Under the pieces are notes generated by a model. The model did not search any database. It was not told the origin of the DNA and saw only the letters and a list, made by a program, of their open reading frames with translations. This document shows positions 30,460 through 45,971 of a stretch of 64,000 nucleotides of DNA, piece by piece. A program made the position numbers and the translations under genes. Numbering within the stretch: position 1 is the stretch's first letter; the number at the start of each line of letters is the position of its first letter. The stretch is from Rubeoparvulum massiliense (GTDB lineage Bacteria; Bacillota; Bacilli; Rubeoparvulales; Rubeoparvulaceae): assembly GCF_001049895.1 (NCBI RefSeq), contig NZ_CVPE01000006.1, positions 766,503 through 830,502 of the forward strand. The letters are read 5' to 3'.

Positions 30460-32892
30460 TTATAAGCTTCTGTTTTGAAGTAGTTGCAGTAATTGTTCAG
30501 GGGGCACAGGCTTACTCACAAGATATCCCTGAATATAATCACATCGCTGTTGAGAGAGATAGCTCCACTGCTTATCTTCCTCAACGCCCTCTGCAACAAC
30601 CTGCAAGTTAAGGGTATGAGCTAATGCAATAATGGAATTGACAATGGCATTGTCCTCAGGATTCATATTCACATGACGGATGAACATCTGATCAATCTTC
30701 AATCGGGAGATCGGGAACTTGCTAAGATAATTTAAAGAAGAGAAGCCTGTCCCAAAATCATCGATGGCAATGTTCACCCCAAGCTGCTTTAAGCCCCCCA
30801 TGGTCTCCATGACCTGTTCAATCTGGTCCATGGCCACCCGTTCTGTAATCTCTAGCTCCAGTAGCTCAGCTGGTATCCCTGTCTCTTGAATAATCTCTTC
30901 GAGGAGTATTACAAAGTTATTCTGCTGAAACTGTACCGCCGAGATATTCACCCCGAGCTTGATGGGATGAATTCCCGCCTCCAGCCAGTTCACCATCTGT
31001 TTACAAGCTTCTCGTAACACCCACTCCCCAAGGGGAATAATGATCCCCGTCTCTTCTGCCAAAGGTATAAATTGATTCGGTGGAATCCAACCATGTCTTG
31101 GATGCTCCCAGCGCAGTAACGCTTCGACTCCGATTACTTCTCTTGTCATCACATCTACCTGAGGTTGATAATGAAGGGTAAACTGCTTCAGCTTTAAAGC
31201 ATTCCTCAGTTCATTCTCTAGCTGCAGAGTTCGCGTTACCTGCTGATTTAGCACGTGATGATACTTACGGAACTGATTACGCCCTTTGGCCTTTGCATCA
31301 TACATGGCCGAGTCAGAATTACGAATTAAGGTAGTCCGATCACGACCATCATCAGGATAGAAGCTAATGCCCACACTGACACTACTGTATAAGGAGCGCC
31401 CATTCAATTTAAGCGGTTGTGTGAAGCTATGAATGATCTTATCTACCTTCGCCTCTACGCAAGTATGATCACATGGGATTGGCAGCAATGCGATAAACTC
31501 ATCACCACCCAAGCGATATAATTCATCAACTGGCCCCAGTTGACTACTGATCCGCTGTGCCGCTGCTACTAGCACCTGATCACCTATCTCATGTCCAAGG
31601 GAATCATTGATCACCTTAAACCGATCCATGTCAATGAAGAGGAGAGCAAATTTGGTTCCTCTCAGTTCTCCTTCTTCAATCCATGCATCTAAAACTTCAT
31701 AAAGTTTCGAACGATTGGGTAGCTGTGTCAATGGATCTGTAAAGGCAAGATGGTAGATGAGCTCTTTATTCTTAATCTCTTCGGAGATGTCACGGGCTGC
31801 ACCACGGAAACCGAGAAAATCACCTTGCTCATCCACGATGATTACAGCACTGGTCTGGAGCCAAACCCAGCTTCCATCCTTTTTCTGTCGCTGATACTGG
31901 AGCTGCTGAAAGCCTTGCTTCTCTTGGATGCTCTCCGCAATCACTTGCTTAACCGTCGAAAGATCATCGTGATGAATATTATCATTGAGAGATTTACCTA
32001 GTAGCTCGTCGGGAGTAAATCCTATGATACGCTCCACCGGTTCAGAAAGATAGATATATTCACCATCACGTCCAGACTCCCATACATACTCATCAAATGC
32101 GCTTACTACATCACGAAAGCGCTTCTCGCTGGCTGCTAATTGGAAGTGGCTACTCTGCACTAATTGATAAATTTCCATCATCTCTGGGAGAAAATGAGGA
32201 GAATCTTCATAGTCTAGATCTAGATTACAAACACGGTCACGGAAGAGCTTTATACTATCCTCATATTTTAACGTTATAAATTTCGTTCCGATCAAACCCA
32301 TGATAAGCATCGGGATCAAAATGGAAAATATGTTGTCTATTCGGTCCATAAAAAGTGTACGGAAATCACTTACGGTAATGTTCCCCCACACATGACCGAT
32401 CACTTCGCCATCAATAATAATTGGATGGATCCTAGCGATCACATAAGCTCCCCGAGTTTGCGAATAGTTATGAAATTTATAGGGTTCTTTGGTTTGATAC
32501 ACCGTTCTTGCTTCCGATTGGGGACGAATATCCTTCAATCCAGATTCATCATAATTAGGCACAAAGGCGACAATGCTCTGGAGGTCCTTTACATAGTAGC
32601 CTGCTCCATAGCCTGGAAATGCTTGTTGTACCTTCTCCACAATCGGCTGCAAAAGTCTGTTTAGAGCTAAGACCTGGTCATGATTGGGAGTGCTGATCTC
32701 CTCCCCTAACAACTCTTCATAGGATTTTCCTCCTAGTTCCAATTCTAGAAGGTAAGTCAGTGATTCAGTTGCTTGATGCTCACGCTGAATCATACTATTC
32801 CAAACCTCATAGTAATGCCAGGCAAAGCTGAAGAGTAGGGTAATGACAATCATTAATACCGTTAGCAGATAGACTTTCCGGGTAACCGCCAT
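30460..32892 (-). CDS. Membrane sensor PAS-GGDEF-EAL c-di-GMP protein
   Basis: The 810-residue protein has one N-terminal helix, an extracytoplasmic sensory region of about 160 residues (28-190, with GYYVKDLQSIVAFVPNYDE, Cache-like), a second helix (about 192-212), a PAS domain (about 255-375), a GGDEF domain with intact signature (RLGGDEF) and an EAL domain with GVEALLRW, DDFGTGFSS and KIDQMFI. Both catalytic signatures are complete. Compared with the gene at 18761 it adds an extracytoplasmic sensor. It converges on the polymerase gene with one base between stop codons. Confidence 0.88.
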   Translation of the reverse strand: MAVTRKVYLLTVLMIVITLLFSFAWHYYEVWNSMIQREHQATESLTYLLELELGGKSYEELLGEEISTPNHDQVLALNRLLQPIVEKVQQAFPGYGAGYYVKDLQSIVAFVPNYDESGLKDIRPQSEARTVYQTKEPYKFHNYSQTRGAYVIARIHPIIIDGEVIGHVWGNITVSDFRTLFMDRIDNIFSILIPMLIMGLIGTKFITLKYEDSIKLFRDRVCNLDLDYEDSPHFLPEMMEIYQLVQSSHFQLAASEKRFRDVVSAFDEYVWESGRDGEYIYLSEPVERIIGFTPDELLGKSLNDNIHHDDLSTVKQVIAESIQEKQGFQQLQYQRQKKDGSWVWLQTSAVIIVDEQGDFLGFRGAARDISEEIKNKELIYHLAFTDPLTQLPNRSKLYEVLDAWIEEGELRGTKFALLFIDMDRFKVINDSLGHEIGDQVLVAAAQRISSQLGPVDELYRLGGDEFIALLPIPCDHTCVEAKVDKIIHSFTQPLKLNGRSLYSSVSVGISFYPDDGRDRTTLIRNSDSAMYDAKAKGRNQFRKYHHVLNQQVTRTLQLENELRNALKLKQFTLHYQPQVDVMTREVIGVEALLRWEHPRHGWIPPNQFIPLAEETGIIIPLGEWVLREACKQMVNWLEAGIHPIKLGVNISAVQFQQNNFVILLEEIIQETGIPAELLELEITERVAMDQIEQVMETMGGLKQLGVNIAIDDFGTGFSSLNYLSKFPISRLKIDQMFIRHVNMNPEDNAIVNSIIALAHTLNLQVVAEGVEEDKQWSYLSQQRCDYIQGYLVSKPVPPEQLLQLLQNRSL

Positions 32893-33016: not shown

Positions 33017-33046
33017 AAATAGGACTATGATCCATCCATAGTCCTG
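33017..33046 (-). terminator. Terminator of the liv/KAS III/hydrolase operon
   Basis: On the minus strand AGGACTATG...CATAGTCCT with an eight-base loop is followed by a run of six T residues. It lies just past the stop of the last hydrolase gene, marking the operon's end. Confidence 0.8.
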
Positions 33047-33061
33047 TTACATACTCCTATT

Positions 33062-33850
33062 TCAACTAGAGATGAGCGTACTCTTGACAACTTGCACAAA
33101 TTGCTGAGGATCTTCGAGCATGATGGAGTGACCGATATGGGAAAACATGATTAACTCTCCATGGGGAAGCAGCTCGCAGGTGGATTGCATCATTTCCTTC
33201 GTGACGAGTAGATCTTGCTCACCATAGATGACATATACAGGCATCGTCAACTTCCCAGCTTCTTGACGAATATCAAACTTTTCTAATGAACGGGCATTGG
33301 GGATGACTACATGGGCATCACGCATTGCCTCGTCGACAATTTGCTGAAAGAATGGAGTCTGGTGGTCTGCTGCAGGCGCCACCCCTTTTAATGCTGCCTC
33401 CATCAAGGGGCGTTGACTACCTAAGAGAGACAGGACAGCATAGTTTTCCTCTGGCGTTACCAGACCATGGAGAGGAGCTGAGTTAATTAAAATCATCCGC
33501 TCTATCATACTAGGAGCTAATAGGGCTGTCCTCATCACAATGGCGCCACCTAAGGAATGACCTACCAAGGTGACCTGCTTGGTCTCCAGCATTTCCAAGA
33601 GTGCTAACAAATCGTGGGCATATTGCTCAATTTCATACCCTGCGTCAGGACGTGTGGATTGACCGACACCACGCATATCCACAGTGACCACCTTACCCAA
33701 TTCAGAGAGGGGTTCGACCACTTGATTCCACCAGCTCTGATTCGCAATATTCCCATGTACCAGGACCATTGTAGATTCTCCAGTACCTTGCTCGTGATAT
33801 GCCAATTGACAATCGTCTAATTGGAGGAACTTCATACTAGACATCTCCAT
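33062..33850 (-). CDS. Alpha/beta hydrolase (second of a pair)
   Basis: The 262-residue protein has an oxyanion region VLVHGNIANQSWW, nucleophile elbow GHSLGGA (catalytic Ser) and a C-terminal His in HIGHSIMLEDP with an acid in the YVIYGEQDLLV segment, so the Ser-Asp-His triad is complete. The fold covers esterases, lactonases, C-C hydrolases and haloperoxidases. It is the last gene of a probable operon with another hydrolase, a KAS III-like enzyme and a Liv-type transporter. Substrate is unknown. It starts one base after the previous gene's stop. Confidence 0.85.
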   Translation of the reverse strand: MEMSSMKFLQLDDCQLAYHEQGTGESTMVLVHGNIANQSWWNQVVEPLSELGKVVTVDMRGVGQSTRPDAGYEIEQYAHDLLALLEMLETKQVTLVGHSLGGAIVMRTALLAPSMIERMILINSAPLHGLVTPEENYAVLSLLGSQRPLMEAALKGVAPAADHQTPFFQQIVDEAMRDAHVVIPNARSLEKFDIRQEAGKLTMPVYVIYGEQDLLVTKEMMQSTCELLPHGELIMFSHIGHSIMLEDPQQFVQVVKSTLISS

Positions 33851-33851
33851 C

Positions 33852-34658
33852 CTAGACCTCTCCCTTCTTTACTGCATTAAGAAAATTGATCAGTTCTTCA
33901 ACAAATTCTGCTGGTTGTTCATAAGCGGAGGCATGACCAGCTCCTGCCATGATGCGGAGGTCACCATGAGATACCTCGTGAATGATCCGCTCACTATAAT
34001 AGGCTGGTGTTAGAATATCATGCTCACCAACGATGCAGCGAATTGGCATGGTTAACTTTTTTAATCCATAGAGAGCATCATGTTGGAGAGCGCCTTGAAT
34101 CAGCCAGGTTGCCACAGGTGAATCCAGATTGGCTCCATATTCTCGAAACTGCAGAAGCTGGTCGTAGTTCTCCTCCAGAAATCGTGGTCCCCAGACATAA
34201 GGAAGGGCAACATCGAAACGGAGCAGCCCACCACCTGCTTCCATGGCTTGTAACCAACTGTGTAGTTTTGCATAAAAGAGGCGATCAACCTGAGGATAGG
34301 TATCAGCTAGGAAAAGTGAAGAAAAGCGCTCTGGAGCTTCAATGGCTGCCATTTGCAGGACTGCTCCACCATTGGAAATCCCCACACCATGTACCTGTTC
34401 AAGCTGTAAATGATCTAATAATTGTAATAGATCCTGAGCATGAAGGATTGAGGTGTATGGTCCTGCTGGTTTATTAGACTTGCCTTGACCGCGGCAATCA
34501 TAGCAAAGAACAGAGTAATGCTCCTTCAATCTCTCTATATGGGGATCCCACGTACGCAAATTGGTTAATAAACCATTTACTAATACAATCACATCAGCAT
34601 GATCTTTTGGATGCCACTCATAGTAGAGTTGAATATCACTCAATTGAGCCTTCGGCAT
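33852..34658 (-). CDS. Alpha/beta hydrolase (first of a pair)
   Basis: The 268-residue protein has VNGLLTNLRTW in place of the usual HG oxyanion motif, nucleophile elbow GISNGGA, acid segment IVGEHDILTP and the catalytic His in MAGAGHASAYEQP. The motif pattern resembles esterases and 3-oxoadipate enol-lactonase-like proteins, but assignment is weak. I chose ATG 34658 (GAGGGAGAGGG upstream) over an earlier start in the KAS III-like gene. It lies in the same operon as the paralogous hydrolase and differs from it enough to suggest sequential steps rather than duplication. Confidence 0.83.
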   Translation of the reverse strand: MPKAQLSDIQLYYEWHPKDHADVIVLVNGLLTNLRTWDPHIERLKEHYSVLCYDCRGQGKSNKPAGPYTSILHAQDLLQLLDHLQLEQVHGVGISNGGAVLQMAAIEAPERFSSLFLADTYPQVDRLFYAKLHSWLQAMEAGGGLLRFDVALPYVWGPRFLEENYDQLLQFREYGANLDSPVATWLIQGALQHDALYGLKKLTMPIRCIVGEHDILTPAYYSERIIHEVSHGDLRIMAGAGHASAYEQPAEFVEELINFLNAVKKGEV

Positions 34659-34684
34659 GGCTGTCCCTCTCCCTCGTTTTGTAA

Positions 34685-35698
34685 TTACCAACGAATCGCT
34701 GTAGCTGCCCAAGCATACCCGATGCCTGCGCTGACGAGCACAACGAGATCACCTTGCTTCAAGCGTCCTTCCTGAACAGCCAGCTCTAAAGAAAGGATCT
34801 GATCTAGCTGACCAATATGACCATACTCTTCTAAATAGATCGCCTGATCCTCCCGTAAACCGAGGCGCTCCAGTATGGTTTTATGCGCTGAACGCTTCAT
34901 ATGCAAGATTCCTAAATAATCGATCTCTTCCACAGAATAGCCACTTTTACGAACAGCCTCTTGAACCACTTGAACGAAGGTGGAAAGGGATTTTTCCTCT
35001 AGTCGCTCCTTCATCCCCTCTGGATCAAAGACATCTAAATAATATTCTCCCTTTGCTAGCGTCTCTTGAGTTAAAGGCTCCTTCGTTCCGCCAATGGGTA
35101 CTGCTACATCCTCTGAGAAGCTACCATCGGTAATAATATGACTTTCAAGAATTTGATGCTCATCTCTTCCTTTTTGGAGGATGAGTGCACCACCCCCTGC
35201 TGCTAAGTTATACATAAAGCGGGTTCGAGGATTCTTGTAGTTAATAAAATCCACATTACGATAGCCACCAGCAAGCAATACTGTGTTGATGGAATTGTCT
35301 GTGAGCATCAAGGCTCTCGCCAGCTTCAATGCCATTACCGTTGTACCACAGCGTAACGCCACATCGAAGGACCAAGCTCGCTCAGCCCCTAACTTCGCTT
35401 GTGTATAGATCCCTGCCGTCCAAAGGGGATATTCCTTATGCTCTTCACCAATATAGATCACTAGATCAAGCTTGGTTGCACTGATCCCTGCTCGTTGAAT
35501 CGCCTGCTCCGCTGCCCAAATTCCCATCTGAGCAGTATGATCATCTGGACCTGGTATGGGTTTTTGCAGGATTCCCATCTTCTTTTCAATAATCTCCTGA
35601 GGTATCTCACTCACTGTAGCCAGTTCACGAGAGGTCATCACCTGATCTGGCAAATAGAAGCCTGTACTCAAAATCCCAATCGACTCCTGGTTCCCCAT
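34685..35698 (-). CDS. Divergent KAS III (FabH-like) thiolase-fold enzyme
   Basis: The product (337 aa) has the thiolase fold of 3-oxoacyl-ACP synthase III. The catalytic Cys is present (Cys117 in ALRCGTT) and a His aligns with the FabH catalytic His (His266 in LHMKRSAHK). The usual catalytic Asn (GNTSAAS) is replaced by His294 in YGHIGQLDQ. The C-terminal GAAL-like end (WAATAIRW) is conserved. The altered active site argues against normal fatty acid initiation and for acyl transfer or a C-C bond reaction on a special substrate. AAGGAG lies eight bases before the ATG. It is surrounded by transporter and hydrolase genes. Confidence 0.85.
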   Translation of the reverse strand: MGNQESIGILSTGFYLPDQVMTSRELATVSEIPQEIIEKKMGILQKPIPGPDDHTAQMGIWAAEQAIQRAGISATKLDLVIYIGEEHKEYPLWTAGIYTQAKLGAERAWSFDVALRCGTTVMALKLARALMLTDNSINTVLLAGGYRNVDFINYKNPRTRFMYNLAAGGGALILQKGRDEHQILESHIITDGSFSEDVAVPIGGTKEPLTQETLAKGEYYLDVFDPEGMKERLEEKSLSTFVQVVQEAVRKSGYSVEEIDYLGILHMKRSAHKTILERLGLREDQAIYLEEYGHIGQLDQILSLELAVQEGRLKQGDLVVLVSAGIGYAWAATAIRW

Positions 35699-35717
35699 TA
35701 CTTCATCTCCTTCTTGA

Positions 35718-35894
35718 TCATTTACTAATTCTAGCGAGTACCTCTTCGATATAAGCCACCGCTTCTGCAAGCTGTGTCATCACAATTTCCTTCTCACCTT
35801 GGACATCTGTAATACGAATCCGCCATTGCTCAGGAATATTCTCATCCTTGACAAAACGAAGGACGAATGATTGAACGATCTGCTGTCCCGCCAT
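35718..35894 (-). CDS. Small conserved-looking protein, unknown (58 aa)
   Basis: ATG 35894 is preceded by AGGAGGG at ideal spacing, and the gene fits exactly between livM (12 bases upstream) and the KAS III-like gene (19 bases downstream). The product has a beta-type N-terminal half (QSFVLRFVKDE, WRIRITDVQGE) and an amphipathic C-terminal helix (LAEAVAYIEEVLARI). No signal peptide. I do not recognise a family. Its place suggests a small accessory or binding protein for the KAS III-like enzyme or hydrolases, which is inference only. Confidence 0.7.
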   Translation of the reverse strand: MAGQQIVQSFVLRFVKDENIPEQWRIRITDVQGEKEIVMTQLAEAVAYIEEVLARISK

Positions 35895-35905
35895 CCAATT
35901 CCCTC

Positions 35906-36946
35906 CTATGACTCTTTGATATCTTCTGCTCGTTCTGAACCGCTCCCTGGCGGAACCATGGAAGCGGTGAAGCGCTTTGCTTTCCAATCAACCCATCGTT
36001 GGGTAATGGTCCCCACAATTCCTTTAGGGAAGAAGATCACCATGATAATGAAGGCAAGGCCAAAAAAGAGGAGCCAACGATCAAAATTGGTAGATTCCAG
36101 ATAATTCTGTAGCACCTCAATAATTCCCGTCCCAATGATGGGACCGATCAGTGTACCCACCCCACCCACAATGGTGACAAGTAGTGCTTGATTCAAAGTG
36201 ATCTCTACTCCTAAAACACCTGGCACATCCACGTGGAAGGTGGATAAGGCATACATCACACCTGCTAACCCTGCTACCATCCCTGCTACTACATTGATAA
36301 TCACCTTATAGTAAAAGACATTGTAGCCTAGGGATTCCATCCGTTGTTCATTTTCACGAATGCCCTGTAGAACACGGCCGAGAGGAGAGAGGGTAAAACG
36401 GCGGAGCAATAGATAGATCAACAGCATGAAAATGATGGCCAGGTAGGTGAAGAGCAAGCGATCCTGAAAAAGCTCTGGTTTCTTATAGTTAAAACCATCA
36501 CTTCCTCCTGTAATTTTCCCCCATTTCTCTGCAAAAACAGCCACCATCTCTGCTACGGCCAGGGTAAGCATGGCAAAGAAGTGGGTGCGTAATCGGAGGG
36601 AAAAAACGCCTAAGAGAAGGCTAAGTAGTCCTGTAAGGACCAGTGTGATGACCACTGCAAGTGCTAAAGAACTATAGGTAGGTGCTACCTGCTTAAAGAG
36701 AATGGAAGTGGTATAGGCGCCCATCCCAAAGAACATCACATGACCAAAAGAAACGATACCCGTGTAGCCGAGAAGAAGATCATAGCTCATGGCAAAAACA
36801 GCCATGATGGCCACATTGGTAAGGATGATTAACGAGCTTCGTGAGTCCTGAAAGAGCATTGGCAGGATGAGAAATACGATGGCAAGGATGGTAAACACCA
36901 TGAGTACCGGTGATGATAGGCGTTGTAGATTGTATAATGGCTTCAT
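35906..36946 (-). CDS. livM: Branched-chain amino acid-type ABC permease, LivM
   Basis: The 346-residue permease has about nine or ten helices and the LivM-type segments YDLLLGYTGIVSFGHVMFFGMGAY and NEQRMESLGYNVFYYKV with the following VAGMVAGLAGVMYAL. It pairs with LivH. ATG 36946 has GGAGTGAGAGA upstream and lies four bases after the livH stop. The C-terminal tail is charged and extended. Confidence 0.9.
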   Translation of the reverse strand: MKPLYNLQRLSSPVLMVFTILAIVFLILPMLFQDSRSSLIILTNVAIMAVFAMSYDLLLGYTGIVSFGHVMFFGMGAYTTSILFKQVAPTYSSLALAVVITLVLTGLLSLLLGVFSLRLRTHFFAMLTLAVAEMVAVFAEKWGKITGGSDGFNYKKPELFQDRLLFTYLAIIFMLLIYLLLRRFTLSPLGRVLQGIRENEQRMESLGYNVFYYKVIINVVAGMVAGLAGVMYALSTFHVDVPGVLGVEITLNQALLVTIVGGVGTLIGPIIGTGIIEVLQNYLESTNFDRWLLFFGLAFIIMVIFFPKGIVGTITQRWVDWKAKRFTASMVPPGSGSERAEDIKES

Positions 36947-36950
36947 TCTC

Positions 36951-37847
36951 TCACTCCCTCCCTCCAAATAAGCCTTGCGGCCTTAAGAATAGGACAAGCA
37001 CCATGATAATATAGACAATGGCTGTTGAAAGACCCGCTGCATAATAGTTGATAAAGGCTGTAGCAATTCCAACGAGAATCGCTGCTACCATAGACCCCGG
37101 TACACTTCCCATCCCTCCGATGACCACGACTACGAAGGCAAGGAGCTGATACTCCATCCCGATCCCTGATGTGATCACCTGTTGATAGGGTGCCACCAGA
37201 AAACCACCAATGGAGGCTAAAACTGCTCCAAGGATAAAAACGCCAAGGAAAATGTTCTTAATATTGATACCAAAGGCCTGTACCATCTCCTTATCCTCTA
37301 CACCAGCCCTTACGATCAAGCCTAAACGAGTACGATTCAGCAGGTATTGCATCAATGCAAAAATCAAGAGCCCTGCCATGATTAAAAAGATCCGATATTT
37401 GATAATGGTGATTTCTCCCATCTGGATATTCCCTGCTAGCCATGCTGGTGGTTGAACGCCAACGGGGTTCACACCAAAGATCAATTTAGTTACTTCCGTC
37501 AGTACGATCATGGCGCCTAATGTGATCAAAATCTGCGCGATTAAGTCGCCATATACAGGCTGGATGATTAACTTCTCTATGATAAAGCCTAGGATCACCC
37601 CAGAGAAAATGGCACCTAATAGTCCTACTAGAAAACCGAGCTGATCTGAGAATCCCCAGCTCTGCATCGCATACTGATAGACCCAAATTCCTGAAAATGC
37701 ACCAAAAGCGAAGAGACCGCCATGGGCAAAATTTAAGACATGCATGAGTCCGAAGATCAACGTTAAGCCTACTGCTAACAAAAATATCAACATTCCTAAG
37801 GCAAATCCATTGATGGATAAAGAAATCCAAAGTTCCCAAAACGTCAT
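36951..37847 (-). CDS. livH: Branched-chain amino acid-type ABC permease, LivH
   Basis: The 298-residue permease has about eight helices and family segments LTLIFGLMHVLNFAHGGLFAFGA near the N terminus, ARAGVEDKEMVQAFGINIK-like coupling loop (VRAGVEDKEMVQAFG) and GGMGSVPGSMVAAILVG near the end. It forms the heterodimeric channel with LivM. The Liv group carries branched-chain amino acids, amides and urea, and in catabolic islands aromatic acids. Confidence 0.9.
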   Translation of the reverse strand: MTFWELWISLSINGFALGMLIFLLAVGLTLIFGLMHVLNFAHGGLFAFGAFSGIWVYQYAMQSWGFSDQLGFLVGLLGAIFSGVILGFIIEKLIIQPVYGDLIAQILITLGAMIVLTEVTKLIFGVNPVGVQPPAWLAGNIQMGEITIIKYRIFLIMAGLLIFALMQYLLNRTRLGLIVRAGVEDKEMVQAFGINIKNIFLGVFILGAVLASIGGFLVAPYQQVITSGIGMEYQLLAFVVVVIGGMGSVPGSMVAAILVGIATAFINYYAAGLSTAIVYIIMVLVLFLRPQGLFGGRE

Positions 37848-37869
37848 TCGATCACCTCCCTACTTACGC

Positions 37870-38577
37870 TCAGGCAATCCCTAAGTATTTTCTTTTTAAT
37901 TGTTCATCTTCCACAAGATCTGCCATCTTACCTGAATGGACGGTGCGGCCATCATCCACCAAATAATATTGGTCGCCTAGCATACTAGCCATCTGAAAGT
38001 TTTGCTCTACTAGTACAATGGTGGTATGTGTTTTTATTTCGTTAAGTGCTTCGATAACTCGTTCTACCATAATGGGTGCTAAGCCTTTGCTAGGTTCATC
38101 GATTAAGAGCAGATCGTTAGGCTGAAGGAGTGCTCGCCCAAGGGAGAGCATTTGCTTTTGTCCACCGCTTAGATGTCCACCCTTTCGTTTCCACGCTTTC
38201 TTTAAGTCAGGGAAGAGCTCTAAAATCCAAGCCTGTCGTTCTTGACTTGCTGCATCCCCTTTGCCCATGGCCACTCGCATGTTTTCCTCCACGGTTAAGT
38301 GGGAGAAGATCCCTTGATCCTCAGGAACATAGCCAATCCCCTTCTGCGCAATCTGGTGTGGTGATAGACGCTGGATCTCCTCACCATGAAAAAGGATCAT
38401 ACCCCTTGAAGCAGGTTGAAAACCCATGATCGAACGTAATGTGGTTGTTTTTCCTGCCCCATTACGTCCCAGCAAGACAGTAACCTGACCGCGCTTAGCT
38501 TGGAATGAAACGCCCTGTAAGATATGGAACTGACCGATATAGGTCTCAATATGATCAACCTGTAGTAGCTGTTCCAC
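37870..38577 (-). CDS. livF: Branched-chain amino acid-type ABC ATPase, LivF
   Basis: The 235-residue ATPase has Walker A (GRNGAGKTT), Q-loop (YVPEDQGIF, typical of LivF), signature (LSGGQKQMLSLGRAL), Walker B (LLLIDEPSKGLAP) and H-loop (VEQNFQ). The GTG start at 38577 has AGGAGG eight bases upstream and overlaps the end of livG by 23 bases. Confidence 0.92.
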   Translation of the reverse strand: MEQLLQVDHIETYIGQFHILQGVSFQAKRGQVTVLLGRNGAGKTTTLRSIMGFQPASRGMILFHGEEIQRLSPHQIAQKGIGYVPEDQGIFSHLTVEENMRVAMGKGDAASQERQAWILELFPDLKKAWKRKGGHLSGGQKQMLSLGRALLQPNDLLLIDEPSKGLAPIMVERVIEALNEIKTHTTIVLVEQNFQMASMLGDQYYLVDDGRTVHSGKMADLVEDEQLKRKYLGIA

Positions 38578-39328
38578 TCGCCATCCCTCCTAGATAAGCC
38601 TTCTGAACATCCTCGTTCTCCATAATGGCCTCTGGTACACCATCCGCTAATAACTGACCATGAAAGAGAACAGCCAATGAGTCAGATAAATCCAAGACCA
38701 TATCCATCTTGTGTTCAATCAGCAGAATGGTCCTGTTACGTTCCTCCTTAATATTGCGGATTAGCTGAAGAATGGCAGGTACCTCTTCCAGTGACATCCC
38801 GGCAGTCGGTTCATCGAGGAGGAGCAGATCACGTTCCAAAGCAAGAAGCATACCAATCTCCAATTTTCGCTTCTCACCATGTGCTAGATTCTTCGCGAGG
38901 GAATGTGCTTTATTCTCGAGAAGAACCCGTTCTAACACGTGATAGGCTTTCTCTTCTACCTCTTTATAATGGCGAAAATGGCGTATGGGGTTATATCGGA
39001 TCCCTTTCTCGATCTGAACAGCCAATCTTACATTCTCTAACACAGTGAGATTGGGAAAGATATTGGTAATTTGAAATGAACGTCCGATCCCCTTCCCTGT
39101 TCTCCGAATGGGAGATAATCCTGTAATCTCCTCACCTTTTAAGTAGATTTCACCTTGGGTTGGCTTAAGCTGACCACTAATCAGGTTGAAAAGCGTGGTC
39201 TTCCCTGCTCCATTGGGCCCGATAATCGACTTAAACTCATGGGGATGAACGGTGAGATTGACACCTTGTACTGCAGTATGACCACCGAAGGAAATGGTTA
39301 AGTCCTTCGTCTGGAGGATTGGTTCCAT
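38555..39328 (-). CDS. livG: Branched-chain amino acid-type ABC ATPase, LivG
   Basis: The product (257 aa) has Walker A (GPNGAGKTT), LivG-type Q-loop region (GIGRSFQITNIFPNLTVLENV), signature variant (LAHGEKRKLEIGMLLAL, usual for LivG), Walker B (LLLLDEPTAGM) and H-loop (IEHKMDMV). ATG 39328 with AAGGTG five bases upstream is preferred to a longer start at 39370 that would reach into the upstream hairpin. It pairs with LivF. Confidence 0.92.
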   Translation of the reverse strand: MEPILQTKDLTISFGGHTAVQGVNLTVHPHEFKSIIGPNGAGKTTLFNLISGQLKPTQGEIYLKGEEITGLSPIRRTGKGIGRSFQITNIFPNLTVLENVRLAVQIEKGIRYNPIRHFRHYKEVEEKAYHVLERVLLENKAHSLAKNLAHGEKRKLEIGMLLALERDLLLLDEPTAGMSLEEVPAILQLIRNIKEERNRTILLIEHKMDMVLDLSDSLAVLFHGQLLADGVPEAIMENEDVQKAYLGGMASGTATTG

Positions 39329-39357
39329 CAACACACCTTCTTTCTCCAATTTGTGAA

Positions 39358-39404
39358 AAAAGGGCTGCAATCTACTCCAGCATCACTGCGGATTGCAGCC
39401 CTTT
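39358..39404 (-). terminator. Intra-operon terminator between livJ and livG
   Basis: On the minus strand AGGGCTGCAATC...GATTGCAGCCCT closes a hairpin with a roughly 20-base loop, followed by six T residues. Because transcription continues into livG, this probably acts as a partial terminator that keeps the binding protein in excess of the membrane and ATPase subunits. Confidence 0.8.
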
Positions 39405-39421
39405 TCATATGCACGCTTTTA

Positions 39422-40693
39422 TTAATTCTTAATGGGAGGTTGAGTCTCCTCAGGTGATAGCTCGCGGATCAACTCAGGAACAGGATATGGGTGTTCTGAA
39501 CTCTTCACTAATTTTGCAGCATAAAGCGTCTGTAGCGCTTGATGATCCTCGGCACGGAAGGTCATGGGACCCTTCGGTGAATCGAAGGTCATTCCCTCCA
39601 TGGTCTGAATCAGCGTCTCCACCTCGGTGTCTCCGCCCGTCTTCTCCAAAGCTGTTACGATCGCCATGGCTGCTGCAAAGCCTCCTGCTGTAAAGAGATC
39701 TGGAACAGCGCCATTATACTTCTCCTTATGCTTTTCGATTAACCAATCATTCACTTCATTCTGTGGCAACAGATAGTTGTAAACCGTGAATCCATTCAAG
39801 CCTACTGCTGTCTCGCCCATGGCTGTTAAGCCTAGAATATCTGGGAAGCCTGTCACTGGCGTCACTTTATTGAAGAAGCCTAACTCCTGCATTTGTACCC
39901 AAGGTGTGTTCGCTCCAGCCCAAACGACGTACACATATTCTGCTCCAGAATCAGCTACCTTCTGGATATGAGAGGTATGGTCAGTGACATCGTGGGCTGT
40001 CATTTCACGGTGGATGATTTCATGACCACGGGCCTCTGCTTCCCGTTGAAATGCATTGGCACCATCGATTCCAAAGGCATAATCCTGGGCATAGATGGCC
40101 ACCTTTGCATTCTCACCTGGGATGGAGGCTGCTGCTGCTGCTGCATCCTGAGATGAATTGCGTCCTGTTCTAAAGATGTAGCGATTCCAATTCTCTCCTG
40201 TAATCGAGTCTGCCACAGCCGGCTCAATGATGAAGATCTTCTCGTACTCCTCTGCTAGAGGTAAAATTGCCGTGGCTGCAGCGGAGCTGGTTGTTCCGAT
40301 GATAAAATCAGCCTTATATTCATCCAGTAGCTTTTCTGCCTTTTCAATGGCTGTATTGCCATCTAATTGATCATCCTCTACACGCCATTCAATCTTTCGA
40401 CCAGCCACTTCAAAGGTACCTTTCGTAGCATACTCTAAACCTAGTTCAAAGCCTTGAATGGTCTGGGTTGCATACGCTTCCAATAATCCAGTCTTTCCAG
40501 CTAACAAGCCAACTCGAACTGGTTCGTTGGAAGCATTGGGTGAAGTCGTTTGATTCGATGTGGTTCCACCCTTGCTCTCATCGGATGCGCCTGTATTTTT
40601 ACTGCCTTGGTTATTACCACAGGCCACCATGGTAAAGACCATTACCAATGTTAATAGTAGAAGAAGTGAGCGTTTCATTCCATGTCCCTTCAC
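39422..40693 (-). CDS. livJ: Substrate-binding lipoprotein, LivJ/UrtA-like
   Basis: The 423-residue protein has a lipobox (FTMVAC), a Ser/Asn-rich linker, then a periplasmic-binding fold of the LivJ type (VRVGLLAGKTGLLEAYATQ; GTTSSAAATAILPLAEEY). The GTG start at 40693 follows GAGGAGG by eight bases; ATG 40678 is an alternative. It is the first gene of the operon and defines the ligand, which is not predictable here; amino acids, amides and aromatic or acyl compounds are all known for this family. Confidence 0.88.
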   Translation of the reverse strand: MKGHGMKRSLLLLLTLVMVFTMVACGNNQGSKNTGASDESKGGTTSNQTTSPNASNEPVRVGLLAGKTGLLEAYATQTIQGFELGLEYATKGTFEVAGRKIEWRVEDDQLDGNTAIEKAEKLLDEYKADFIIGTTSSAAATAILPLAEEYEKIFIIEPAVADSITGENWNRYIFRTGRNSSQDAAAAAASIPGENAKVAIYAQDYAFGIDGANAFQREAEARGHEIIHREMTAHDVTDHTSHIQKVADSGAEYVYVVWAGANTPWVQMQELGFFNKVTPVTGFPDILGLTAMGETAVGLNGFTVYNYLLPQNEVNDWLIEKHKEKYNGAVPDLFTAGGFAAAMAIVTALEKTGGDTEVETLIQTMEGMTFDSPKGPMTFRAEDHQALQTLYAAKLVKSSEHPYPVPELIRELSPEETQPPIKN

Positions 40694-40749
40694 AGAGCAT
40701 TCCTCCTCATGAATAATGGGTAAGCTTTTCCTTAATCGTAATGGGAGGA

Positions 40750-40767
40750 GTTACAAGAAAGTTACAA
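40750..40767 (-). promoter_or_regulatory. Tandem heptamer repeats, possible SARP operator
   Basis: The minus strand has TTGTAAC twice, with starts 11 bases apart (TTGTAAC-TTTC-TTGTAAC), one helical turn between copies. It lies between livJ and the regulator gene and overlaps the regulator's stop codon. SARP-type DNA-binding domains recognise heptameric direct repeats at 11-base spacing next to the -35 region, so this is a fitting operator for the neighbouring regulator. Confidence 0.55.
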
Positions 40768-43700
40768 CTTTGTGAACAGGTGAAAAGGTAGAGGTTTTGT
40801 CTCTCTTATTAAGCTCCATAATTCTACAGTCTCTGGTAGAGGTTCCACCCCCAGCTCCTCTTCGAGCACATGCTTACATTTCTCATAGACTTTTAAAGCT
40901 TGAGCGCGATGTTGAAGCTGATAATAGCAAAGCATTTGGAGTCGATATGCCTCCTCCCAACAGGGATCCAACTGAAGAATCCGTGAGCTCAATTGGATAC
41001 AGGCTTCATACTCCCCATCCTGCACCAGAAAATAAGCAAGCTGTTCAGCTGCTCGTAGAAACAAAACTTGAAAACGTTCTCGCTCTTCAATGGACCAGTC
41101 CTCATAGCGCTGCTCCAGGAGATAGTCGCCTTGGTAGAGCTGGATCGCCTTGCTTAACCATTCCTTGCGCCGCTCCCGATCCTCCTTCTCTCGTAAGCCA
41201 TGCTGTACTGCATACTCAAATTGCTCCACATCCAATTCATAGCCTGATGCCAGGTTAAACCCATAGGAAGTGCCATGTCGTTGAATATAGAAAGGTGTAC
41301 TCCGTGCTGTACGATTAGGCTCTAACGCTTTCATCAAGGCATTAAGTGCCACCTTGAAGTCACGATTGGCTGCTTTTTCATCCACCTCTGGCCAGAGCAG
41401 CTGATAGATCAGCTCGCGGGGGAGTAGCTGCTTACGATAGGTTAGCAGTAGTTGAAAGAGTTGCTTCGCCTTCTCTCGTTGCCACTCCTTTTCACTCACC
41501 TCTCGCTCACCGAGCCAGACTCGAAACTCTCCGAAGGTCTGTATCCGTAATGTATAGCCCGGATGAAGATCCACCTTATCGAAGCCTAGATCTGCAAGCA
41601 AAGGATTCACATAATCTAAAGCGATTCCTTGCTTCTGTGCTTCTACCAGCATCGGAAGAAACACTTGAACATCCTTGGGACCTAGAAGAGTACGCTGACG
41701 AAAGAGAAATTGATAGTTATCATGCTGTATATGTAGGAAGAGACGAGGAAGATAGGAATGTAAACGATTCCAATCCTGTTGACGCCAGCTCACATAGGCA
41801 AGCCATAGCATAGAAACTGCTGACCCATAGTTATCCCCGCATAAGGTGAACTGTTGGTAGGTGTTCTCTAACTCTAGCCCCGCCTGCTGCCAATTCTCAT
41901 CCATCACATAGCTATAGGCTTGGGCTAAATCACAGAGGGTTAACATCCACATATCCTTCGCCCGCTCGGCGATTTTTCTACCCTCTTGCGCGTAATGGCG
42001 GGCACGTTCACCCTGTCCCAGCGATGCATAAAGAAGAGCGATTCCCATCAGCGCTTCTACCTTACCTCGTTCCACTTGAAGGCGTTCGAAGATCTGTATC
42101 GCCGTCTGATAGCACTGAAGGATCATGGTAGGTTCATAATGCTCAAAGAGTTGCGAGGCATGTCCTAGTCGAATCCATCCCACAGCCTCCACAAATGGTG
42201 AGAGCAATGAATTGCCAGTAAAGATTCCCTTCTCCGCCATACGTTTCGCTGCTTCTCGCTCTCCTAGAAATGCATAGAGAAGGGAGAGAAGCACCGATGG
42301 ATCACGATGAAAGCGGCTCACCCTAGATTCCCCTTCTTGCTGCAGCGATTCCACCGCTTGAATTGCCGCTCGTAAACGGCCAGTTCGTAATAATAAGCGG
42401 GCCTCCAACTCTCCTCTGCTCACCTCATGTCGAATCTCTCGCGCTATACGAAACAGCTTTTCTGCTGTCCGATGCTGTCCGAGATTGATCTGATTCTCCG
42501 CTAATAACTCGAGGAGCTTTGCCTTATGCTCTGTCTTTGTTCTCCCCCCAAGTATACGTGTAGCTTCACGCAATAGGCGATCCGCTTGTGCAGGCTGAAT
42601 GGTATCGAGATAGAGACGAGCTTGCCCTTCGAGAGCACGACTTTGCCAGTACGGATCTTGTTCCTGTCTAGCTAGATCTTCTGCTTTTTTATAGCTTAGA
42701 AGCGCCTCCTGAAAGCGATTACGTAAACGAGCAATATCGCCCTGAAAAACGGGAAAAGCCAGCGAACTGGTTCCTTGCTGGTCAGATATACAATCTAACC
42801 AGATCTGCAGGGTATCCAGTTGACCTTGCTCCAACCACTGGTCTCCCTGTAGTTCAAGCAAACTCCTCACCTGAAGCCAATCCTCAAGCTCTAAGTAAAC
42901 GCGCAGTGCTTCCTCGATTTTTTTCTCCCCTTCATAATGTTGGGCTAACTTTCGTAGAAGGCTCTCATACCATCGAGCATCTTCTTTCAAGCGTTCACGT
43001 AACACTTGGCGGAATAGAGCATGATAGCGAAAACGCCCTGATTGGATCACCGTAAGAAAGAGCTCCTCTTGCAAGAACTGATTACAGATCGTAGAGGATT
43101 GCTGCCAACCTAGTAAGAGATCGCCTAACTCGGGTGTCACCTCTTCACAAATGGAAGTAGCGAGCAAAAACCGCTGTTCATCCGCTGATCGAGTAGATAA
43201 CACTTCAGAGATCAGGTATTCGAGAATCTCTTCACGCTGATGAAATTGAGATAGCAATTGTTCTAAATCAGCACCAGTACTAAGTTGCTGGCCAATTAAT
43301 GCGAGAACAATCACCCAACCCTCTGTGAGCTTCATGAGTTGATCCGCTCTATCTTTTTCAAGATGAAGACCATATCGCTCATAAAGTTGATGGATTTCAT
43401 CATTCGTAAATAGGAGATCTCCTTGCTTGATCTCTAGCAATTCTCCCTTCATCCTTAGCCCATTCATAATTGCAAGGCGGGGACGCTTTCGACTGCTAAA
43501 AATAATATGTAGATTGGGAGGTTGATGCTCAATGAGTAGCTGAAAGAGATGATTCAACTCTTCCACATCATCAATGGTATGATAATCGTCCAATATGAGA
43601 TAATAGGATCCTTCCTTCTCCTGAATCATTCGTATGATTTCATAGAGTGAGAGCTCCAATTGCTTTTGGATCTCTTCATGCCCTCCCAATCCAACCGATG

Positions 43701-43971
43701 GGAGATCCAGATTCATCCCATGAATCAAATGGGTAAGAAACACAATGGGATCCCGATCATATGTCGTTAAGGTATACCAAACGATTTCCCCTCTCCAGGC
43801 AGCACTTGCTAAGAGGAGGCTGGTACTCTTCCCATAGCCTGGCCCTGCTTGTAGAGTGGTTATAGGAAACTGAGGAACATGACCAAACAGCTGTTCTAAT
43901 CGTTCTGGCAAATAATAAGTAGACCTGGGCTTGGGTGGGATTAATTTACTCTTCATAATGGCGATGGACAT
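40762..43971 (-). CDS. Large STAND-type ATPase regulator with SARP/BTAD output domain
   Basis: The 1069-residue protein has a MalT-like nucleotide-binding N-terminal module with Walker A GPGYGKST (43-50) and Walker B YYLILDDYHT (about 123-132), then a long helical TPR-like region (about 340-800). Instead of the LuxR helix-turn-helix of most LAL regulators, the C terminus (about 815-1065) carries an OmpR-type winged helix (LFQLLLTYRKQLLPRELIYQLLWPE; HGTSYGFNL) and a BTAD helical domain, as in SARP activators. It is probably the activator of the adjacent liv operon on sensing its substrate. AAGGAGGAGAGGAG precedes the ATG. Confidence 0.86.
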   Translation of the reverse strand: MSIAIMKSKLIPPKPRSTYYLPERLEQLFGHVPQFPITTLQAGPGYGKSTSLLLASAAWRGEIVWYTLTTYDRDPIVFLTHLIHGMNLDLPSVGLGGHEEIQKQLELSLYEIIRMIQEKEGSYYLILDDYHTIDDVEELNHLFQLLIEHQPPNLHIIFSSRKRPRLAIMNGLRMKGELLEIKQGDLLFTNDEIHQLYERYGLHLEKDRADQLMKLTEGWVIVLALIGQQLSTGADLEQLLSQFHQREEILEYLISEVLSTRSADEQRFLLATSICEEVTPELGDLLLGWQQSSTICNQFLQEELFLTVIQSGRFRYHALFRQVLRERLKEDARWYESLLRKLAQHYEGEKKIEEALRVYLELEDWLQVRSLLELQGDQWLEQGQLDTLQIWLDCISDQQGTSSLAFPVFQGDIARLRNRFQEALLSYKKAEDLARQEQDPYWQSRALEGQARLYLDTIQPAQADRLLREATRILGGRTKTEHKAKLLELLAENQINLGQHRTAEKLFRIAREIRHEVSRGELEARLLLRTGRLRAAIQAVESLQQEGESRVSRFHRDPSVLLSLLYAFLGEREAAKRMAEKGIFTGNSLLSPFVEAVGWIRLGHASQLFEHYEPTMILQCYQTAIQIFERLQVERGKVEALMGIALLYASLGQGERARHYAQEGRKIAERAKDMWMLTLCDLAQAYSYVMDENWQQAGLELENTYQQFTLCGDNYGSAVSMLWLAYVSWRQQDWNRLHSYLPRLFLHIQHDNYQFLFRQRTLLGPKDVQVFLPMLVEAQKQGIALDYVNPLLADLGFDKVDLHPGYTLRIQTFGEFRVWLGEREVSEKEWQREKAKQLFQLLLTYRKQLLPRELIYQLLWPEVDEKAANRDFKVALNALMKALEPNRTARSTPFYIQRHGTSYGFNLASGYELDVEQFEYAVQHGLREKEDRERRKEWLSKAIQLYQGDYLLEQRYEDWSIEERERFQVLFLRAAEQLAYFLVQDGEYEACIQLSSRILQLDPCWEEAYRLQMLCYYQLQHRAQALKVYEKCKHVLEEELGVEPLPETVELWSLIRETKPLPFHLFTKL

Positions 43972-44149: not shown

Positions 44150-45481
44150 TTAATACATCTTCATATATCGTTCTCGTTCCCAAGGATGCACTTGAACCCG
44201 GAAGAGATCCCATTCAATCTCCTTCAACTCTAAGTAATGCTCCAAGACATGAGCTCCTAGGGCATTACAGATGACCTCATCCTTCACCATCTCATCCATG
44301 GCTTCTCGTAATGTGGAAGGAAGGCTTGCGATCCCACACTCTTCCCGTTCACTAGCTGTCATCACATAAATATTGCGATCTACTGGTGGGCAGAGCGCCA
44401 TCTTCTTCTTAATGCCATCCAAGCCTGCCATTAATGTAACAGCCAAAGCAAGATATGGATTAGCCATTGGGTCAGGATTACGGAGCTCCAAGCGTGTGCT
44501 CATACCTCGTGAAGCAGGAATCCGCACTAAGGGACTACGATTCTTCGCAGACCAGGCGACGTAACAAGGCGCTTCATACCCTGGCACCAGACGCTTATAT
44601 GAATTCACAGTAGGATTGGTAATAGCTGCAAAGCTCCGCGCATGGTGCAACAAGCCTGCAATATAATGACGAGCCGTTTCACTAAGACCCAAGGAATCAT
44701 TCTCATCATAGAACGCATTCTTATTACCAATGAAGAGGGATTGATGGGTATGCATACCTGAACCGCTCAAGCCATATATGGGTTTTGCCATAAACGTGGC
44801 ATGTAAACCATGCTTCCGTGCAATGGTACGAACTACGATCTCAAAGGTTTGGATAAAATCAGCAGCGCGAACTGCATCGGTATATTTAAAATCGATCTCA
44901 TGCTGACCTGGTGCCACCTCATGATGGGAGGCTTCCACTTCGAAGCCCATCTGATCAAGGGTCAACACAATATCGCGACGACAATTCTCTCCTAAGTCCA
45001 CAGGGGCAAGGTCAAAATATCCACCATGGTCATTGACATCAAGGGTGGGCTCACCCTTTTCATCGGTTTTGAAAAGGAAAAATTCAGGCTCTGGTCCCAC
45101 ATTCATCGTCGTGAAGCCCATGGCTTCAGCCTCTTTCAATGCACGCTTAAGGACATAGCGTGGGTCTCCTTCAAAGGGAGTGCCATCTGGATTGTAGACA
45201 TCACAGATGAGCCGTGCAACACGGGCATCCTCAGAAGACCAAGGGAAGATCATCCACGTATCAAGATCAGGATAGAGGTACATATCAGATTCTTCGATAC
45301 GTACGTAACCTTCAATGGAAGAGCCATCAAACATCATCTTATTATCCAGTGCTTTTTCTAACTGGCTTAAGGGAATCTCCACATTTTTGATGGTGCCTAG
45401 AATATCAGTAAACTGTAATCGGATAAATCGTACATGCTGTTCTTTGGCCATGTGTAGAATCTCTTCTCTTGTTGTACTCAC
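44150..45481 (-). CDS. glnA: Glutamine synthetase type I
   Basis: The 443-residue enzyme shows the beta-grasp N terminus and catalytic motifs [50 protein letters not shown] and the NRSPLVRIP segment. The length and motifs match the GSI-alpha type of Bacillus, regulated by feedback inhibition and complex formation with GlnR. It converts glutamate and ammonia to glutamine. The start codon is GTG at 45481, after GGGAGCG. It lies 58 bases after glnR in the same operon. Confidence 0.95.
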
Positions 45482-45539
45482 AATTTTCGCGCTCCCAACT
45501 ATTTAATATGAAAGATGTGGTAGAACCTCTCCAGCATAC

Positions 45540-45971
45540 CTACTGAAAAAATCGCGAGAGTTCTCCTTGGATCAACGATACTTCATGGGTTCGTTCTCCA
45601 TTGATCAACTGCTGGCGGACACGTTCTAATAGTTCTTGACTGGTGATCTGCGGCGTTTTAATTCTCTTCTCCCGTTCATGAATACCAGCAGGAAGAGGAC
45701 CAGAAGTCTGTACGAACTCTTCCTGGGTCGTAGTGGATTGAAACACTTTACGAATCCCTGCCATATTAAGCCCCTGTTCTAATAATTCCTTAATGAAGAA
45801 AAGTTGCTCAATGTGATGAAATGAGTAAAGTCGATGTCCACCCTCACTGCGGGGAACATCGATCAATCCTTGCTCCTCATAGTAACGAATCTGCCTACCT
45901 GTCAATTGAGTCAATTGTTGAACAATGCCAATAGAAAAAAGAGGTTGAAAACGGCGGTTAGCTTCATCCAT
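45540..45971 (-). CDS. glnR: GlnR, MerR-family nitrogen repressor
   Basis: The 143-residue protein has a MerR winged helix-turn-helix (FSIGIVQQLTQLTGRQIRYYEEQGLIDVPRS split around residues 13-42) and a short C-terminal tail for feedback by glutamine synthetase. It represses its own operon and other nitrogen genes. A perfect GlnR box is placed 64 bases upstream. Gene order glnR-glnA is conserved across Bacillales. Confidence 0.93.
   Translation of the reverse strand: MDEANRRFQPLFSIGIVQQLTQLTGRQIRYYEEQGLIDVPRSEGGHRLYSFHHIEQLFFIKELLEQGLNMAGIRKVFQSTTTQEEFVQTSGPLPAGIHEREKRIKTPQITSQELLERVRQQLINGERTHEVSLIQGELSRFFQ

Follow-up and report, generated by a model that had tools for sequence, protein, structure and literature searches.

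What does a bacterium take up, and how does it process it, with an operon that places a LIV-type ABC importer beside a KAS III-fold enzyme, two alpha/beta hydrolases and a 1069-residue regulator? The operon in question belongs to Rubeoparvulum massiliense (genome of 2.84 Mb in six contigs, labelled G000) and lies within a 64,000-nucleotide stretch of contig NZ_CVPE01000006.1 that we call the window, from whose first letter gene coordinates are counted. We propose, with a probability of about 0.55, that the locus is this genome's version of a widespread operon that scavenges exogenous short-chain polyhydroxyalkanoate (PHA) fragments, most likely 3-hydroxybutyrate oligomers or close 3-hydroxyacyl esters. 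We read these as fragments of polyhydroxybutyrate (PHB) because relatives of the operon adjoin genes for PHB-digesting enzymes, and the secreted depolymerases among these carry the main weight of the substrate argument; the gene content points to import, intracellular ester cleavage, oxidation and activation with coenzyme A (CoA).

The operon comprises ten open reading frames (ORFs) between 33062 and 43971, all on the minus strand and tightly packed in one direction in an ORF check of the window, with intergenic spacing that runs from a 23-base overlap up to 68 bases; the genes are presumably co-transcribed. From upstream to downstream, the features are:

40762-43971, minus strand: regulator of 1069 aa, a STAND/MalT-like NTPase with TPR and a C-terminal SARP-type output (winged helix + BTAD) (PF03704, NF003420)
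39422-40693, minus strand: LivJ-like lipoprotein solute-binding protein (PF13458, 202 bits)
38555-39370, minus strand: LivG-like ATPase (PF00005 + PF12399)
37870-38577, minus strand: LivF-like ATPase (PF00005, 113 bits)
36951-37847, minus strand: LivH-like permease (PF02653, 123 bits)
35906-36967, minus strand: LivM-like permease (PF02653, 135 bits)
35718-35894, minus strand: 58-aa protein with the motif SFVLRF...WRIRITDVQGE, matching no family model
34685-35698, minus strand: KAS III-fold enzyme of the PRK06840 family, Cys116-His265-His293 (NF005308, 519 bits)
33852-34712, minus strand: alpha/beta hydrolase 1, GISNG box (PF00561, 82 bits)
33062-33850, minus strand: alpha/beta hydrolase 2, GHSLG box (PF00561, 103 bits)
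33045-33021, minus strand: terminator-like hairpin (10-pair stem) and T-run

A first-pass annotation of the sequence had described co-directional livJ, livG, livF, livH and livM genes, a 58-residue protein, a KAS III-like enzyme and two hydrolases with a 1069-residue regulator upstream, and our coordinates and family assignments agree with it throughout; the terminator that it placed at 33017-33046 also fits the hairpin listed above. The KAS III coordinates follow from a likelier ATG (the listed ORF extends to 35770), and a likelier ATG for hydrolase 1 lies near 34661. Across the region, terminator-type hairpin patterns are not in excess (6 found against 8.9 expected), and promoter patterns are fewer than chance and were not used.

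The substrate argument starts from secreted enzymes encoded with the operon in other genomes. We compared genomes at the level of the class, in a set of 399 Bacilli in which the window genome is the sole member of its order; 51 of them encode a member of the KAS III family, and 32, the window genome included, hold close orthologues (58-68% identity). Strong matches to PF10503 occur in 14 of these 32 genomes, compared with 4 of 80 Bacilli that served as controls (p 3e-6), an enrichment that shared ancestry may have inflated because the two groups are not family-matched. In 8 of the 14 (G105, G116, G119, G127, G138, G149, G181 and G257) the operon has a secreted depolymerase gene next to it, and two further species, Alkalihalobacterium elongatum and A. 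chitinilyticum, have such a gene between those for a short-chain dehydrogenase/reductase (SDR) and an acyl-CoA ligase. Six genomes of the G105 type carry the depolymerase gene co-directionally and directly behind the orthologue of hydrolase 2, at a distance of about 50-125 bases where measured. The seven depolymerases that we scanned score 291-327 bits against e_dPHAscl_type1 (NF050058; cut-off 150), the linked depolymerases have signal peptides as judged by eye, and the closest solved structure, 8daj, is named a PHB depolymerase family esterase.

The intracellular hydrolases point the same way. The hydrolase that usually adjoins KAS III in relatives shares its family with the intracellular short-chain PHA depolymerases: it scores over 390 bits with NF050089 (i_nPHAscl; 444 bits at locus L035, cut-off 300), has a GWS[TML]G box, and aligns over its full length with the solved PHB depolymerase 8ynv (E 2e-78). 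NF050089 is a lipase-box family described from Bacillus thuringiensis PhaZ, and its known role is the breakdown of stored PHB. A hydrolase over the cut-off is found in 22 of the 32 KAS-orthologue genomes, where 2.9 would be expected. The other ten are the window genome, G105, G116, G127, G138, G149, G181, G012, G066 and G063, and the operon hydrolases of the nine besides the window genome share 37-42% identity with window hydrolase 2. In a phylogenetic tree, hydrolase 2 groups with all seven of these operon hydrolases that the tree included (G063, G105, G116, G149, G181, G012 and G066; support 97/94) as sister to that of G063 (99/96), and its best NCBIfam match is i_nPHAscl. As judged by these sequence comparisons, window hydrolase 2 is the orthologue of the hydrolase that adjoins secreted PHA depolymerases in related operons. 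Hydrolase 1 is 31% identical to a hydrolase of a Chloroflexota module and groups weakly, on long branches, with the hydrolases encoded in the modules of Chloroflexota and Halobaculum (95/71 and 97/93).

How widely is the gene set shared? Scanning 84,980 species genomes for KAS III, we obtained 379 loci and examined the best 80, counting clusters over whole loci. Nearly all are from Bacillales, including Alkalihalobacterium, Ornithinibacillus, Lysinibacillus, Psychrobacillus, Neobacillus, Mesobacillus, Paenibacillus, Tumebacillus, Hazenella, Acididesulfobacillus and others. All 80 loci have LivH and LivM clusters, 77 have LivJ, and the counts for alpha/beta hydrolase, SDR and acyl-CoA ligase are 71-79; the commonest order is regulator, LivJGFHM, an optional protein of 50-60 aa, KAS, hydrolase, FabG-like SDR and acyl-CoA ligase. 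The optional protein, which lies between LivM and KAS at 36 of the 80 loci, is a relative of the 58-aa window protein with the same motifs (SFVVRF...WRIKVTHVQ), and together they form a small conserved family that corresponds to no known one. Among the Bacilli, the LivJ family is found in 55 of the 399 genomes, and 46 of these also have KAS (7.0 expected, p 2e-45); in 29 of the 32 KAS-orthologue genomes a LivJ relative and KAS are no more than 10 kb apart. Since the arrangement is conserved in so many genomes, it is not a product of chance. Thus the separation of transporter from enzymes that would have told against the first-pass annotation is not what homologous loci show; its uptake and catabolic operon with a thiolase-fold enzyme and hydrolysis, under an adjacent SARP/BTAD-STAND regulator, is supported. 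Its two hydrolytic steps prove to be lineage-specific: the rule among relatives is a single intracellular hydrolase accompanied by an SDR and an acyl-CoA ligase, to which a secreted depolymerase is added in some.

Related modules extend beyond the Bacilli. On Halobaculum megaplasmids the LIV genes precede a KAS that also belongs to NF005308 (409 bits), with ligase, MaoC and hydrolase genes close by, and a Chloroflexota plasmid groups regulator, SDR, FabH-like KAS, CoA-transferase, thiolase, hydrolase and LIV genes. The closest KAS orthologue (68%; genome G001, locus L150, C1 537000-556000) lies behind a dipeptide-type ABC importer, together with an SDR and an acetyl-CoA C-acetyltransferase, and the LIV genes of that genome are found with a regulator and a ligase about 1.27 Mb away; that a different importer can adjoin KAS favours a substrate other than a free branched-chain amino acid. 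In Mariluticola an annotated 3-hydroxybutyrate dehydrogenase adjoins the same LivJ family, and this gene, the SDR and acetyltransferase of G001 and the FabG-like SDR of most relatives are pointers to 3-hydroxyacid chemistry. A transporter-less layout is seen at two loci (L155 and L156, in G057 and G204), where ligase, regulator, KAS, hydrolase and SDR genes are followed by genes for a secreted lipase-like protein and a second intracellular alpha/beta hydrolase. This secreted hydrolase bears only a weak resemblance to PhaZ7 (28.7 bits against a cut-off of 450), and it is not counted as evidence.

The KAS III enzyme lies well within the PRK06840 family NF005308 (curated cut-off 315), and the nucleophile Cys116, the general base His265 and the third residue His293 are invariant in an alignment of 19 orthologues. 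It shares its fold and nucleophilic cysteine with the KAS III/FabH superfamily: its AlphaFold (AF2) model (pLDDT 90.6) best matches FabH structures in the PDB (TM 0.85-0.9), followed by BioZ, PqsD and OleA. It differs from FabH in the replacement of the triad Asn by His (Cys-His-His, not Cys-His-Asn), in its score with the classical FabH model (TIGR00747, 142 bits against 292), in a conserved GEEHKEYPLWTAG segment and in a context that is catabolic rather than one of fatty acid synthesis. We suggest, with low confidence, that the enzyme transfers an acyl group between the imported ester (or its hydroxyacid) and CoA; acyl transfer is favoured because KAS is the best-conserved enzyme of the operon and is paired with the transporter even where the hydrolase differs. 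A more specific version, which we regard as rather improbable, would combine dedicated ABC uptake of 3-hydroxybutyrate oligomers with thiolysis of the imported ester, in which the Cys-His-His enzyme would cleave it by transfer to CoA and save the energy of the ester bond, with a Ser-for-Cys paralogue acting as partner in some genomes.

This paralogue, which we call KAS-prime, carries Ser at the Cys position and in many genomes belongs to a TetR-ligase-(MaoC)-KAS-prime-LIV module that is frequently joined to the module of the Cys-type KAS. The window genome itself has a TetR, acyl-CoA ligase and KAS-prime cassette on contig C3 (178333-181645; locus L122, 8322-11645) that lacks a transporter, and in other Bacilli the TetR-ligase-KAS-prime cassette lies directly upstream of livJ. 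In one Bacilli family (f22; loci L133, L134, L135 and L138), large genomes hold TetR-ligase-MaoC-KAS-prime-LIV modules without the Cys-type KAS.

Several observations weigh against PHA-fragment uptake as the role of the window operon. Both of its hydrolases fall under the NF050089 cut-off of 300 (hydrolase 2 at 136 bits, hydrolase 1 at 74 bits), hydrolase 1 departs from the usual operon type, and no protein anywhere in the window genome exceeds that cut-off. The SDR and ligase are unlinked there, with best matches at C6 1169040 (57%) and C4 524836 (53%), and the genome has neither a PF10503 protein nor a match to PhaC. The window version is a divergent one: it has one hydrolase more, SDR and ligase genes are missing from its surroundings, and the genome lacks a secreted depolymerase of the PF10503 type. 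More generally, a strong PF10503 protein is found in under half of the KAS-orthologue genomes, and the PF10503 fold also covers acetylxylan and feruloyl esterases. No strong PF10503 gene occurs in the 19 genomes that have only KAS-prime, so the paralogous module of those genomes likely handles a different substrate. Finally, no chemical reason is evident for a KAS III as the best-conserved enzyme.

The most serious alternative, which we consider possible if doubtful, is uptake and beta-oxidation of a different carboxylic acid or ester, whether a hydroxy acid of medium or branched chain, a lactone or a non-PHB natural polyester, with the depolymerase neighbours a sideline of some lineages. Relatives of LivJ in Alphaproteobacteria adjoin genes for an AMP-ligase, enoyl-CoA hydratase, MaoC, acyl-CoA dehydrogenase and thiolase, a beta-oxidation setting that also suits other carboxylic acids; many Bacilli versions of the operon contain MaoC and a second ligase, and the Halobaculum locus is also adjoined by an acyl-CoA dehydrogenase and a 2-oxoacid dehydrogenase. 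Against this stand the PHB-depolymerase-family hydrolase of most relatives and the secreted PHA depolymerases, which are enriched and linked to the operon in 10 species. Of the substrates suggested in the first-pass annotation, esters as a general class gain support and cyclic ketones, aromatic acids and amino acid derivatives gain none; short-chain PHA oligomers are indicated in their place.

A biosynthetic role is quite unlikely. KAS III, SDR, ligase and hydrolase could together make a beta-keto or beta-lactone product, by an OleABCD-like route or as an alkylquinolone- or pyrone-type signal, with the transporter serving re-uptake. We considered OleABCD olefin biosynthesis because most relatives hold the same four protein superfamilies, formally the OleABCD set, and the occurrence of KAS and its Ser-for-Cys paralogue side by side resembles a PqsC/PqsB pair. 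The nucleophile of OleB is a dehalogenase-type Asp. The operon hydrolases instead have a Ser nucleophile (GxSxG), the third catalytic residue of the KAS is His and not Asn, the SDR is of the short FabG type, and secreted depolymerases together with an importer indicate catabolism. Membership of OleABCD is ruled out for the window locus by the Cys-His-His triad, the GHSLG and GISNG nucleophile boxes, the SDR class and the transporter.

Could the importer instead be an ordinary high-affinity LIV-I transporter for branched-chain amino acids, or a urea/amide transporter, with the enzymes adjacent by accident? We consider this very unlikely. The five subunits all belong to LIV/Urt families, and with a Peripla_BP_6 binding protein, two BPD_transp_2 permeases and two ATPases the importer has the subunit set and folds of the LIV/HAAT superfamily, as do LIV-I, UrtABCDE and the Rhodopseudomonas aromatic-acid importers. 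However, LivF, LivG, LivH, LivM and LivJ each score below the curated LIV-I and Urt equivalog cut-offs, and Bacillales and Halobacteria alike retain the linkage to KAS and acyl-CoA enzymes. The window importer differs from other LIV/HAAT importers in this linkage to KAS III, hydrolase and acyl-CoA enzymes and also in its pocket residues. LivJ is closest to the solved structures 3n0x and 3nnd (E 2e-92) and distant from E. coli LivJ (2liv, E 1e-5), and a search of open-licence papers found nothing relevant on 3n0x/3nnd or RPA4397. In a low-identity alignment with the E. coli protein, Ser79 is retained and Thr102, Tyr202 and Glu226 (E. coli numbering) are replaced by Val/Ala, Asn and Asp; the alpha-amino-binding positions Thr102 and Glu226 are thus not kept, being Val/Ala and Asp (Ile in Alphaproteobacteria). 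These substitutions tentatively suggest that the ligand is a carboxylate lacking an alpha-amino group.

Mobilisation of the cell's own PHB granules is the least credible alternative: the usual operon hydrolase does belong to an intracellular PHB depolymerase family, yet, unlike the storage setting known for NF050089, operon carriers mostly lack a PHB synthase (TIGR01836 over cut-off in 1 of the 32 KAS-orthologue genomes, 2.6 expected, and in none of the window genome's proteins), a lack of co-occurrence that argues against an endogenous storage role and makes one unlikely in general, and an importer would serve no purpose.

If the operon does scavenge PHA fragments, we envisage the following sequence of events. 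A secreted depolymerase would release oligomers; it is encoded beside the operon in some relatives and would presumably come from other organisms in the case of the window species, which may use neighbour-made oligomers or a related ester. The LivJ-like protein would bind the oligomers, LivFGHM would import them, and the intracellular alpha/beta hydrolases would cut their ester bonds. A FabG-like SDR would then oxidise the 3-hydroxyacid and an acyl-CoA ligase would activate it, the product passing to acetyl-CoA metabolism; these two enzymes are linked to the operon in most relatives and would be supplied from elsewhere in the window genome. KAS III would use Cys116 and CoA to handle the acyl group, the most plausible reaction being transfer between oligomer or hydroxyacid and CoA.

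The regulator would sense the substrate or an intermediate and then activate the operon. The first-pass description of a SARP-type ATPase regulator is a fair one: the N-terminus is of the MalT type (NF003420, 180 bits, residues 6-474), the middle part is TPR-like, and a winged helix precedes a C-terminal BTAD that places the protein among SARP/BTAD regulators (PF03704, 92 bits, 6.4e-26, residues 913-1055). The protein thus shares a MalT-like NTPase and TPR sensor with MalT and a winged helix and BTAD with SARPs of the AfsR type, and differs from these in having its output domain at the C-terminus, behind the sensor; its matches to the SARP and MalT equivalog models are under both cut-offs. In most of the 80 relatives examined an orthologue precedes the operon, and the open-licence papers searched held nothing relevant on BTAD-MalT regulators.

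The first-pass annotation knew of no described pathway with this gene set, and we likewise found no paper describing it as a unit in the open-licence literature searched. The parts are known families, mostly recognised by NCBI models; as far as we know, the probable substrate class is new for LIV-type catabolic operons. If PHA-fragment uptake is correct, many Bacillales from soil and marine habitats (Lysinibacillus, Neobacillus, Psychrobacillus, Alkalihalobacterium, Tumebacillus and others) carry a recognisable operon for the uptake of biodegradable-plastic fragments, so that PHB degradation would gain a route of uptake and, in addition to the secreted depolymerase, a marker in genomes. The PRK06840 KAS III family, labelled in databases as a fatty acid synthesis enzyme, would also acquire a role.

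Immediately beyond the operon's terminator, the window encodes a PAS-GGDEF-EAL protein (30460-32892), and upstream of the regulator gene lies an ordinary glnRA-like pair of glutamine synthetase and MerR-type regulator (44150-45971). Elsewhere in the window genome, locus L122 (12668-15784) encodes an endonuclease/phosphatase-like protein with a dockerin type I domain.

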